Shown one piece after another: positions 4,791 through 22,746 of a DNA stretch of 64,000 nucleotides; position 1 is the stretch's first letter; each line of letters opens with the position of its first letter. A program made the position numbers and the translations under genes. Under the pieces are notes generated by a model. That model had not been told where the DNA came from, did no database searches, and worked only from the letters and a program-made list of their open reading frames with translations. This DNA is from an uncultured Verrucomicrobiales bacterium (GTDB taxonomy: Bacteria; Verrucomicrobiota; Verrucomicrobiia; Verrucomicrobiales; Akkermansiaceae): assembly GCA_937928545.1 (NCBI GenBank), contig CALGJQ010000027.1, positions 1 to 64,000 on the forward strand, read 5' to 3'.

Positions 4791-4874
4791 CCCCCGACGG
4801 TGAACTTACTAGCTAAGATGTAAAGACTCTCAATGACTCATCGACACCTCTCAAGATTTCTCTAAGGTTTGAGT

Positions 4875-5933
4875 ATGAAAGTAAAAATCTTACTTTTGAT
4901 CATCGGACTGTCTGCGACCTTCCTAGACGCACAAACCGAAACAAAAGCCCAACCCGAAGCAGGGATCGATGAGATCACCGCCGACCATCAGGCCAAGATT
5001 ACTGAATTCCTGAAAAAAGTCCGCACCCTACCGAGAGAGGAACAAAGCGAGCTTTACCAAAAGGAATATCCGAAACCCGATGCCGCAGTCGCTGCTCTCA
5101 AAAAAATCATCGAGGCAGAACCGAACAACCCTGCGATCATTGACGCCTACGCTTGGATTGCCAAGAACACCCGAGGCAAAGGTCTCGATACCGAGGACTA
5201 CGCCGCCCTTAAAAAGAACCACCTTAATAACCCGAAGCTCAGCACTTTCCTCATTTCACTGACCTACTCTCAGAAAGAAGAAGCGCTAAACTTCGTCCAA
5301 ATGGTCAGCGAAAAAAGCACGGAAAAAGAGATCCGCGGAAACGCCCTTTACGCCCTCGCAGCGAGCATGAAACGGAACAAGGCCAAGGCCACCGAGCACG
5401 CTGCCCTCGTGGACAGAATCCTCAAAGATCACCCCGACCTCACAATTCGTGGCCGCAATGTTGCCCAGTCACTCAAAACGGAAAAAGAAGCGGCTATCAA
5501 ATTCGCAATCGGCAAAACCGCACCCGAGATCATCGGCAAGGACGTCGATGGGAACGAAATGAAGCTCTCCGACTACAAAGGAAAGGTCGTCGTCCTCGAT
5601 TTTTGGGGCGATTGGTGAGGCCCCTGCCGTGCCATGTATCCCCACGAGCGGTCGCTCGTTGCGCGGATGAAAGACAAGCCCTTCACCATTCTCGGAGTCA
5701 ATAGTGACCCTGCGGAGAAATACAAGAAGGCCATCAAAGCAAACAACATCACCTGGCCCTCCTTCTGGGATGGCGGAAAAACCGGCGGCCCCATCGCCAC
5801 CGAATGGGCCGTCCGAGCCTGGCCCACCATCTACATCATCGATGCCCAAGGAGTCATCCGCTACAAAAACACTCGCGGCAAAGCGATGGACGAAGCGGTC
5901 GATGCCCTCATGAAAGAGATGGAAGGCGCATAG
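4875..5933 (+). CDS. TlpA/ResA-like thioredoxin, predicted selenoprotein (UGA = Sec at codon 248)
   Basis: 353 codons including one in-frame TGA at 5616-5618. The ATG at 4875 follows AAGG by 7 bases and begins a signal peptide (MKVKILLLIIGLSATFLDAQ); the TTG at 4869 is less likely. Residues 30-215 are helical with a repeat-like region; residues 215-352 are a TlpA-type thioredoxin fold (GKTAPEIIGKDVDGNEMKLS, then VVVLDFWGDW). At the active site the family has W-C-x-x-C; here the first Cys codon is TGA, giving W-U-G-P-C. The frame then continues with a normal fold (RAMYPHERSLVARM, ILGVNSD, cis-Pro loop RAWPTIYIID) to the stop at 5931-5933. A SECIS-like hairpin lies at 5638-5668. A nonsense mutation is the alternative, but the downstream half shows no decay. 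Predicted role: periplasmic thiol/selenol oxidoreductase. Confidence 0.82.
5638..5668 (+). promoter_or_regulatory. Candidate bacterial SECIS hairpin in the TlpA-like gene
   Basis: An upper stem ACGAGC (5644-5649) pairs perfectly with GCTCGT (5654-5659) around the tetraloop GGTC (5650-5653). A lower stem ATCC (5638-5641) pairs with GGAT (5665-5668) across an internal loop. The loop begins 31 bases after the UGA, inside the 16-37 base range usual for bacterial SECIS elements. A GGUC apical loop is also what the SelB-binding hairpin of E. coli fdhF has. The hairpin lies entirely within coding sequence, as expected for bacteria. Confidence 0.7.
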
Positions 5934-20290: not shown

Positions 20291-20326
20291 AAGGAAAACC
20301 GCGCCCTTGTCGAAACAAGAGCGCGG
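20291..20326 (-). terminator. Hairpin between convergent mlaE and FG-GAP genes
   Basis: CCGCGCCCTTGT (20299-20310) pairs with ACAAGAGCGCGG (20315-20326) around CGAA, with one mismatch. On the minus strand it is followed by a T-rich stretch, so it suits the FG-GAP gene; on the plus strand there is no T-run. Confidence 0.6.
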
Positions 20327-20353
20327 CCACACAAACACACAAAATCAGAGGGG

Positions 20354-21538
20354 TTATTTCTGATAATATACCCATACGAACCCTGTGGATTCTTCTTTCA
20401 AAAACTCCTCCCGTTTTTCGAACAACTTTGAAAAACGACTTTGAACCTTCTCCATTTCCTCGGCGCTCTGCTCCGTTTGAAAAAGCTTTTGAAGCTCCAT
20501 CATCTCCTTGTTCCACTCGGCTTGAGCCTTGTCCGACTCCTCCCGTGTGACACCTTCAGGAAGCGATTGAAGACTCACGCTATCGCCCATAAGGAGATCT
20601 AGTTTACCATCACCGTTTAAGTCATCTGCCCAAACTCGGGTAGAAGAAGATGGCGAAGGGTCCTCATTCGCCCACCGAGGTCCATCTTTCTTAGGCGGAG
20701 AAATTAGAACGGTAGATTTCCCAAAGCTCATCTCCTGATCCTTGCCTGCTGTATTTTCGACCAACTTAACTCCTCCATTTCCAGATCCAGCGAGGAGATC
20801 CAAGTCGCCATCACCATCCCAATCCGCAAAACAAGGATCGCTGTGATAACCGGTCGAAAGAGGCTGATCTCCCTGCATTACTCTCTCACTCTTGGGAGAA
20901 AATTTCCCCTTCCCCTCTCCTCGAAAGAGATAGTAGGTCCCCTTAAAGTTCCCCACAAAAAGATCCAAATTACCATCGCCATCAAAATCCACCGCCGTAG
21001 GCCGCGTACAAATCCTCGGGATATCCATATCTCCTCCTTTCTGGTCAGCAGGTTTGATGATTAAAAGTTTTCCATCCGTCCCCTTCAGAGGCTCGGCCTT
21101 TTTAAAAGTCCCCCCTTTCTCACCCCAAAGCACTTGAAAAAGCCCCGCCATTTCAGAAAGACCATCTCCCGAATACGACCCAGAAAGAATGTCCATTTGG
21201 CCGTCACCATTCAGATCCACAACCTGTGGAGTCGAACTCTTGCATCACCACACTCCGGGGATCTTGGCGATCTCACCTCCAGCTTTGAGAAATTTTCCTT
21301 CTCCAAATTTTCCCTCTCCTTTCCCAGGATAGACCTTGATTTTCCCATTATTGAACTGCCCCACCAGAAGATCTTTCTCTCCGTCCCCATCCAGATCGAA
21401 AAGAGTCGGAGCTGCATAGCCCGGAGCTTCCACTTGAACCAACTGATCTCCGCCTTTCAAAGGAACCGGAGTTTCAAAATTCGCTGCCGCCACTGCGAGT
21501 GGCAGAAGCCCAGAGAGCATAAAATAAATTCTTCTCAT
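20354..21538 (-). CDS. FG-GAP/VCBS repeat protein, predicted selenoprotein (UGA = Sec at codon 98)
   Basis: 395 codons including one in-frame TGA at 21247-21245. From ATG 21538 (MRRIYFMLSGLLPLAVAAAN) it has a signal peptide. FG-GAP/VCBS repeats with the D-x-D-x-D-G calcium-binding pattern lie on both sides of the UGA: LFDLDGDGEKDLLVG before it, then VVDLNGDGQMDILSG, AVDFDGDGNLDLFVG, FADWDGDGDLDLLAG and WADDLNGDGKLDLLMG. The UGA is followed at once by TGC, giving GVW-U-C-KSSTPQ. The last 80 residues are a charged helix. A hairpin with a GGU loop follows the UGA. Both halves look fully conserved, which argues against decay. Predicted exported beta-propeller with a vicinal selenol-thiol pair. 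Divergent from pdhA. Confidence 0.75.
21210..21236 (-). promoter_or_regulatory. Candidate bacterial SECIS hairpin in the FG-GAP gene
   Basis: On the minus strand TCCACA (21230-21225) pairs perfectly with TGTGGA (21221-21216) around the loop GGT (21224-21222). A lower stem TTC (21236-21234) pairs with GAA (21212-21210) across a 3x3 internal loop. Twenty bases separate the UGA from the loop, inside the usual bacterial range. The GG/GU of the loop is what SelB recognises in known elements. Confidence 0.65.
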
Positions 21539-21657: not shown

Positions 21658-22746
21658 ATGGATACTGCAAGCAGCCCAAATATTTCCCCGCTCGATTTTG
21701 CGAGCTCGCCCATTAATAAAACCCTCTCCTCTGAAAAGAAGATCGAGCACTACCGCCAGATGACCCAGATCCGGCGATTTGAGCAATCTGCTCTTAAAAA
21801 CTACTCGAAAAAGGGCACCATGGGTGGCTTCCTTCACCTTTATATTGGTCAAGAATCCCTCGCCGTGGGTGCCGCTTCCCTCATGGGTGACCACGATCAC
21901 ATGATCACTGCCTACCGATGCCACGCCCACGCCCTTGCTGTAGGAATGGGGATGAACGAGTGTATGGCCGAGCTTTATGGAAAAGCCACTGGCTGCTCGA
22001 AAGGCAAAGGCGGATCGATGCACTTCTTCGCACCTGACAAGAACTTCTGGGGAGGCCACGGAATCGTCGCCGGTCAAACTCCACTCGGCCTAGGCCTCGG
22101 CTACGGCCTCAAGTATAACAATCTTCACGGCTCAGCCCTCTGCTTCCTCGGAGACGGCGCCGTCAACCAAGGAGCCTTCCACGAGTCACTGAACATCGCC
22201 GCCCTCTTCGGGATTCCCGTCGTTTACGTCATCGAAAACAACGGCTACTCCATGGGCACTTCTCAAAAACGTTCCTCCGCCTATAAAGACTGCTTAGCCC
22301 AGCGCGCCGACGCTTACGACATGGACTGGGACGTCGTGAATGGTGAGGACTTTTACGAAGTCCGCGCAAAAATGCACATCGCGATGGAGCGAGCTCGCAA
22401 AGAGCTCAAGCCAACCGTTCTCGAAATCAACACCTACCGCTATTACGGACACTCCGTCGCCGACGCCAACCACAAGGTCTATCGTTCTCCTGAAGAGATC
22501 GAAAAATATAAGCGCGACCACGACCCCATCAACCTCTGGAAGCAGCGCCTCCTCGACGAAGGAGTTCTCACTGAAGAATCCGCCAAGGAGATCGACACCG
22601 CTTCCAAAAATGAAGCAGCCGCGTCCGTCAAATTTGCCGAAGACTCCCCCGCCCCAACCGCCGAGGACATTACCAAAGACGTTTACTGGGAGACCGATAA
22701 CAACACCGAGGCCTCCAAGATCGGCCGTCACTTTTTCAACGATTAA
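21658..22746 (+). CDS. pdhA: Pyruvate dehydrogenase E1 component, alpha subunit
   Basis: 362 residues. Thiamine-diphosphate enzyme that decarboxylates pyruvate and reductively acetylates lipoyl-E2. Motifs: FLHLYIGQESLAVG, AYRCHAHALAVG (Tyr-Arg of the diphosphate site and following His), CSKGKGGSMHFF, GGHGIVAGQTPLGLG, the TPP motif LGDGAVNQGAFHES...NN, and YRYYGHSVAD with the catalytic-loop His. The beta subunit follows after 21 bases. E2 is not in the window and lpdA (E3) is 36 kb away. Compare the degenerate paralogue at 45381. Confidence 0.95.
   Translation: MDTASSPNISPLDFASSPINKTLSSEKKIEHYRQMTQIRRFEQSALKNYSKKGTMGGFLHLYIGQESLAVGAASLMGDHDHMITAYRCHAHALAVGMGMNECMAELYGKATGCSKGKGGSMHFFAPDKNFWGGHGIVAGQTPLGLGLGYGLKYNNLHGSALCFLGDGAVNQGAFHESLNIAALFGIPVVYVIENNGYSMGTSQKRSSAYKDCLAQRADAYDMDWDVVNGEDFYEVRAKMHIAMERARKELKPTVLEINTYRYYGHSVADANHKVYRSPEEIEKYKRDHDPINLWKQRLLDEGVLTEESAKEIDTASKNEAAASVKFAEDSPAPTAEDITKDVYWETDNNTEASKIGRHFFND

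Follow-up and report, generated by a model that had tools for sequence, protein, structure and literature searches.

A UGA codon that is very probably read as selenocysteine in a secreted FG-GAP protein with a Sec-Cys pair

In the window, by which we mean the whole stretch of 64,000 nucleotides analyzed here, the apparent stop codon of one gene is very probably the selenocysteine (Sec) codon of a secreted FG-GAP protein with a Sec-Cys pair. The open reading frame at 20354-21538 on the minus strand runs through 97 codons, TGA (21247-21245), TGC, 295 further codons and TAA. This agrees with the first-pass annotation, which had described two FG-GAP halves in one frame joined by that TGA and the TGC behind it. 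Judging from sequence comparisons, we are close to certain that codon 98, the UGA, specifies Sec. We also consider it highly probable that the gene product is an exported selenoprotein of the FG-GAP (integrin/lectin) type with the Sec-Cys pair as its functional site. The features of the gene and its immediate surroundings are as follows.

20354-21538, minus strand: probable FG-GAP selenoprotein gene, TGA read as Sec98, 394 residues, stop TAA
21482-21538, minus strand: hydrophobic N-terminus MRRIYFMLSGLLPLAVAAA, a putative export signal called by eye
21359-21409, minus strand: FG-GAP repeat 1 (DLDGDG), upstream of Sec, bounds by eye
21245-21247, minus strand: UGA codon, probably for Sec98; TGA in 25 of 25 copies
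21242-21244, minus strand: TGC for Cys99, adjoining Sec98; Cys after Sec in 24 of 25 copies
21216-21230, minus strand: bSECIS-like hairpin UCCACA-GGU-UGUGGA, 14 nt past the UGA
21225-21230, 21222-21224 and 21216-21221, minus strand: 5' arm, loop and 3' arm of this hairpin
21176-21226, minus strand: FG-GAP repeat 2 (DLNGDG), past the Sec-Cys loop, its DNA overlapping the hairpin, bounds by eye
20948-20998, minus strand: FG-GAP repeat 3, bounds by eye
20783-20833, minus strand: FG-GAP repeat 4, bounds by eye
20585-20641, minus strand: FG-GAP repeat 5, bounds by eye
20402-20545, minus strand: helical hairpin of the predicted model, residues 332-379, ahead of the C-terminal strand
20297-20328, minus strand: terminator-like stem-loop of 14 pairs, past the TAA
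19487-20284, plus strand: MlaE permease, neighbor in a conserved locus
21658-22746, plus strand: E1 dehydrogenase component (pyruvate dehydrogenase E1-alpha-like), neighbor in the same conserved locus

The predicted protein, of near 42 kDa, matches Pfam FG-GAP_3 (PF13517) with 109.8 bits against a cut-off of 26.9. Of its five DxDGDG-type repeats, the first precedes the TGA and the other four follow it. Other aligned copies have N-termini that resemble its hydrophobic start. The terminator-like stem-loop past the TAA is a weak sign alone, as shuffled sequences contain a mean of 1.6 such sites; the same terminator search reported none just past the TGA. Antisense ORFs are also present over the gene.

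Homologues were collected from overlapping draws of 58 relatives, 384 genomes of the class, 387 of the phylum and 288 of the class of G569, and in the three large draws (384, 387 and 288 genomes) we scored the best four to six candidates per genome. The resulting family has 25 copies in 20 genomes. Comparison of the copies establishes that the UGA is conserved, as the residue that homologues carry at this codon is the same throughout: TGA stands there in 25 of 25. Every copy also has a Cys next to the Sec, in Sec-Cys order in 24 and in Cys-Sec order in one (C19 of the window assembly, G000); the copy with the reversed pair lies at L071:4374-5720 on the minus strand. The site reads IPGVW-U-CKSSTPQ in the window copy; the core motif is W-U-C-T-S-S-T-P-Q-[VF]-V-D, and other forms are PTG-U-C-VGFSPQFVD, PST-U-C-STFCPQFVD and LSAG-U-C-QGSSPRVVD. 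The Pro and Gln near the Sec are invariant in the earlier alignments, and a later copy, from G545, has Arg for Gln. In one paralogue of the window assembly, C14b, the Cys of the pair is the sole Cys of the protein. In a 17-row tree the resolution was poor and long branches met.

Some members of the family do decay. Three of the 25 copies are partial or decayed (G316, G001 C142 and G005), and the G005 copy (L050) is missing a large part. G004, which is not counted among the 25, has a remnant at about L052:1300-1730 with the same neighbors as the intact gene and with the Sec region lost. From the G004 remnant and the partly deleted G005 copy we conclude that some relatives are in the course of losing the gene. 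This is what would speak for a gene degenerating through a nonsense mutation, or for two separate ORFs, but we regard that account as very improbable. TGA is retained in all of the copies though the 14 other aligned rows are only 31-59% identical to the window protein, there is purifying selection past the TGA in close pairs, and there is a codon bias in the hairpin. The recurrence of the TGA bears out the view of the first-pass annotation that a chance nonsense mutation is the less likely cause, and its presence in 20 genome assemblies speaks against a sequencing error, which had been named there as a possible refutation.

For selection, three pairs among G009, G017 and G002 have dN/dS values of 0.09, 0.16 and 0.12 after the TGA, lower than before it; in the other pairs, including those with the window copy, synonymous sites are saturated or nearly so. 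The comparison indicates that the sequence past the UGA is coding and that this part is under purifying selection in close relatives. The order MlaE / FG-GAP / E1 is common to G000, G012, G018, G009, G017 and G002, and in G005 and G004 the same arrangement surrounds the decayed copy and the remnant. Identity in the MlaE and E1 genes on either side is 76-95%, compared with 31-59% for the FG-GAP rows. Recurrence of the TGA, together with the purifying selection, led us to reject a chance nonsense mutation, a sequencing error and a pseudogene.

The organism also has the genes for Sec, the lack of which the first-pass annotation had said would count against its reading. In G000 (3.98 Mb, 75 contigs, 91.75% complete), comparison with known models finds SelA, SelB (319 bits, cut-off 242) and SelD (381 bits), which has an in-frame TGA of its own in CGGUASK. 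The tRNA-Sec scores 59.2 bits with Rfam, over a cut-off that 5 of 14 control genomes also pass, and ARAGORN agrees, with anticodon TCA. PF12390, the small SelA N-terminal domain, has no match in G000. Two short SelA-like fragments lie at G000 C5:11450-11770 on the minus strand, about 1.5 kb from the full selA, and are possibly the remnant of a second selA copy.

Carriers of the gene tend to be genomes with SelA. In the class draw SelA is present in 58 of the 384 genomes and in all seven carriers of a TGA copy (G000, G034, G074, G203, G316, G339 and G404, from five families), an association with P = 1.3e-6 if the genomes are treated as independent and kinship is ignored. In the draw of 58 relatives, SelA is present in 11 of the 12 carriers and in 37 of the 58 genomes overall; the exception is G001 (86% complete), in which neither SelA nor a tRNA-Sec over the cut-off was detected. 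A tRNA-Sec over the cut-off was found in six of the eight carriers tested, at 62-79 bits, and not in G001 or G339, although G339 does have SelA. Outside these eight, G022 is over the tRNA-Sec cut-off and G421 is below it. We think it extremely improbable that the UGA is read as another amino acid, by a change of code or by a suppressor. We found no support for this, tRNA-Sec and SelB are present, and TGA is also the true stop after the last codon of the G203 and G074 copies.

Next to the codon, the first-pass annotation had seen a hairpin of six pairs with a GGT loop, 14 nt after the UGA, and the sequence agrees (TCCACA-GGT-TGTGGA). The bSECIS model in the accessible part of PMC13188914 has a loop of 3-9 nt whose first two bases are G, a stem of 4-16 bp, a distance of 16-37 nt from UGA to loop, and an MFE of -7.5 or lower. 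The window hairpin lies within all of these ranges, with a GGU loop, 6 bp, 20 nt and -9.4 kcal/mol on 42 nt. We folded 19 of the 25 copies: the stem forms at -7.5 or lower in 13 and at -6.0 in one, and the other five are predicted to favor another helix. This rival helix, which overlaps the hairpin, is 88% paired across the family and has little covariation. The fold energy of the window hairpin is no better than that of shuffles (z -0.40 and z -0.35); copies that do beat their shuffles include L080 (z -3.27) and L079 (z -2.44). Rfam found nothing above cut-off over the whole window.

Whether the hairpin covaries was another question raised by the first-pass annotation, and we found that the covariation is real, with two-sided changes at three pairs, but modest. 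These pairs belong to a seven-pair helix examined in all 25 copies, and they are the outer pair (GC/AU), a middle pair (AU to GC, in two copies) and the inner pair (AU to GC, in one copy). We counted five two-sided cells against a shuffle mean of 0.5, and none of 500 shuffles was as high; three two-sided pairs were reached by 2 of 500. The standard pair types were not above shuffles, with 361 of 500 as high. When the helix is slid by +3 it also gives five two-sided cells, but it is then 18.9% paired compared with 85.7%. The outer pair forms in 7 copies and is missing from 18, the inner pair forms in 19, and the middle five pairs are intact in every copy but the decayed one of G005, where one of them is broken. 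RNAalifold on 22 copies reported one covarying pair.

The strongest sign for the hairpin is a codon bias, measured as the departure from the genes' own codon usage in 15 rows with kinship ignored. We took a column as conserved if at least 13 rows share the residue, and of the 79 such columns T103, P104, V107 and Q105 rank 1, 2, 3 and 5. Their codons lie in the hairpin or overlap it, and the comparison points firmly to a constraint on this element.

No close Cys form at the Sec site appeared in the 58, 384, 387 or 288 genomes, for the candidates scored in each. The matches without TGA reported from the 384 and 387 draws are FG-GAP proteins whose open frames run to 523-4513 residues, with scores of 75-122 bits, and two of them, from G160 and G055, outscore the weakest TGA copy (G569, 105 bits). 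We word the claim as the lack of a close Cys form because three distant FG-GAP proteins do carry a single Cys:

L081 (G180): longer single-Cys FG-GAP protein
L082 (G421): longer single-Cys FG-GAP protein
L093 (G055): longer single-Cys FG-GAP protein

When aligned to the family profile, these three read FGCPSP[QN]F. They are like the family in that about 230 residues align to the profile (105-107 bits in G055 and G421) and the Cys is in a loop ahead of a repeat. They are unlike it in their length of 523-700 residues, in a loop that is shorter by about five residues, and in having neither a Cys pair nor a TGA. Their genomes are not among the SelA-positive ones, and the proteins may represent remote Cys relatives from organisms that lack Sec. 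A single Cys where the family has its Sec loop would be in keeping with a reactive site. The G160 protein has a lone Cys close to the Sec site, and the remaining TGA-less matches that were aligned and cover the site have a gap or an unrelated residue there. We also aligned 17 other distant FG-GAP proteins, and all 17 have a gap at the Sec-Cys segment. A search of contigs with a single protein as query yielded distant FG-GAP proteins, with no family copies among them by motif scan; four distant loci on viral contigs matched.

Any selenoprotein gene acts to some degree as a selenium-dependent switch, here between a 97-residue product and the full one, and both this and the lack of a close Cys version in the draws scored would suit a UGA that is mainly such a switch, with residue 98 mattering little. 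We give this a slim chance. The Cys beside the Sec, on one side or the other in every copy, and the nearly invariant Pro and Gln point to a role for the residue itself.

The statement in the first-pass annotation that no FG-GAP selenoprotein has been described holds for the sources that we could check. Table 1 of PMC13188914 (2026; 119 families and subfamilies) has no FG-GAP, VCBS or propeller entry, the words 'FG-GAP' and 'propeller' do not occur in the text of that paper, and the window protein has no match over cut-off in NCBIfam release 20. There is no such family in the accessible parts of PMC12013277 (deep-Sep), PMC5330540, PMC2398784 and PMC4807772, and we found no FG-GAP, VCBS or beta-propeller selenoprotein in the literature that could be checked. 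The nearest in kind are CopZ-like GxUC, SaoL CU, HgcA CU and KCU-star CU in the tabulated part of PMC13188914, which like our family have Sec beside Cys and which have other domains, none of them FG-GAP. According to the accessible part of PMC12013277 (deep-Sep), almost all selenoproteins have Cys homologues, and this may be why the FG-GAP family was passed over. If our reading is right, Sec occurs on a scaffold outside the 119 families catalogued in that table, as an extracytoplasmic Sec-Cys pair. Since the near members all have Sec, what Sec does beyond Cys would become testable. The family would also reveal what is overlooked by searches that take Cys homologues as their starting point, and genes of this kind would tend to be annotated as fragments.

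On the fold, the first-pass annotation had placed the Sec-Cys pair in an exported beta-propeller. The pair stands, as it is there in all 25 copies; the propeller depends on the Pfam family and on a predicted model of moderate confidence (pLDDT 68.5, pTM 0.67), which was built with 17 distant FG-GAP sequences and has a pLDDT below 50 at the Sec-Cys site (residues 96-101). The top Foldseek rows for this model are FG-GAP lectins, at TM 0.39-0.44, followed lower down by KICSTOR ITFG2, CRTAC1, phytase and integrin, and the best matches in a sequence-profile search are CRTAC1 and lectins. Among FG-GAP proteins with known structures, CRTAC1, the lectins PVL and AAL, and integrin alpha share FG-GAP motifs with the window protein, but their similarity to it is weak. 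A vicinal disulfide is present in one propeller enzyme, the PQQ methanol dehydrogenase. It is like our family in having a vicinal pair in a propeller, but it appears only as a weak Foldseek row (rank 48).

For the role of the pair, we looked at neighboring genes, and the window itself contains a second likely selenoprotein:

4869-5930, plus strand: TlpA/ResA-like ORF, likely selenoprotein, TGA 5616-5618 in DFWGDWUGPC

The first-pass annotation had counted a second such case in the same 64 kb, by which this ORF was most likely meant. That there is a second in-frame TGA is correct, but this ORF matches AhpC-TSA and is likely a selenoprotein of a known kind. It is a possible redox partner of the FG-GAP protein. 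A relative of this ORF, with 63% identity past the TGA, adjoins selA/selB in G074, where tRNA-Sec, selA, selB and this TlpA-like gene with TGA (plus strand) lie within 7.8 kb of one another and of the FG-GAP gene (minus strand). In G687, a Thioredoxin_7-like ORF with TGA (FTUNPC, L113:348-1394, plus strand) adjoins the FG-GAP gene on the same strand. On G000 C14, one strand holds in order PSCyt1-DUF1549-DUF1553, DUF1501, FG-GAP, a thioredoxin-like gene with TGA, and FG-GAP. This thioredoxin-like ORF (CDCUGP, L070:5511-6200, minus strand) sits between two FG-GAP genes that both have the TGA. It has no Pfam match, its match to NCBIfam redoxin_TUGYCR (6.7e-8) is below the cut-off of that model, and it is possibly a new subtype. 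TlpA/thioredoxin-like UxxC selenoproteins adjoin some family members and occur in the same window; unlike the family, they have the thioredoxin fold, and they are not homologous to it.

Elsewhere, one G404 copy has iron-sulfur/CCG and ETF genes nearby, a cytochrome c / 3-keto-disaccharide hydrolase gene lies close to the G203 copy, and on G000 C19 DUF1549-DUF1553 and DUF1501 come next after the FG-GAP gene. Among the few neighbors scanned at the window, G034, G001 C92 and G569, there was no link of these kinds. The link to thioredoxin, from three loci and a TlpA-like TGA gene 15 kb off in the window, is suggestive only. Because of the neighbors at the three loci and the usual behavior of Sec, we lean slightly toward a redox role for the Sec98-Cys99 pair, by analogy.

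In the mechanism that we propose, the SelA/SelB/SelD/tRNA-Sec system would decode the UGA at codon 98 as Sec under the direction of the hairpin beginning 14 nt past it. The match between SelB and SECIS can be specific to a species. The Sec98-Cys99 pair would then sit in a loop ahead of the second repeat, and the scaffold would present it outside the cytoplasm as a selenenylsulfide / selenol-thiol couple. This couple would exchange electrons with the thioredoxin-like selenoproteins that are encoded beside some relatives. We infer export, calcium binding and redox cycling of the Sec-Cys selenenylsulfide with thioredoxin-like partners.

The main rival to a redox couple is soft-metal binding by the Sec-Cys pair (copper or mercury, for example) in an exported scavenger or sensor, and we judge this unlikely. 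It gains from the CU and GxUC motifs listed in Table 1 of PMC13188914 for the metal- or cluster-linked SaoL, HgcA, MbdU and CopZ-like proteins, and from C14b, which is without any other Cys. However, no metal pump or chaperone turned up in the part of the neighbors that we scanned, which does include thioredoxin-like, cytochrome-type and iron-sulfur genes, and the distant single-Cys relatives have no pair.

A broader form of the redox reading, which we offer tentatively and with some doubt, is that of a Sec-dependent family that lacks any close Cys counterpart in the phylum as sampled and in which a secreted FG-GAP propeller has the Sec-Cys pair, in either order, as its sole redox center. Such proteins would take part in an extracytoplasmic selenium-dependent relay together with thioredoxin-like selenoproteins and perhaps, in some lineages, DUF1549/DUF1553 proteins (with haem motif) and DUF1501 proteins, and would have been missed because searches that pair Sec with a near Cys form are blind to them. 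The DUF1501 and DUF1549/DUF1553 genes lie at L070:7487-11349 and L071:384-3736, both on the minus strand like the family copies there, and the DUF1549/DUF1553 genes of both loci contain CXXCH motifs.
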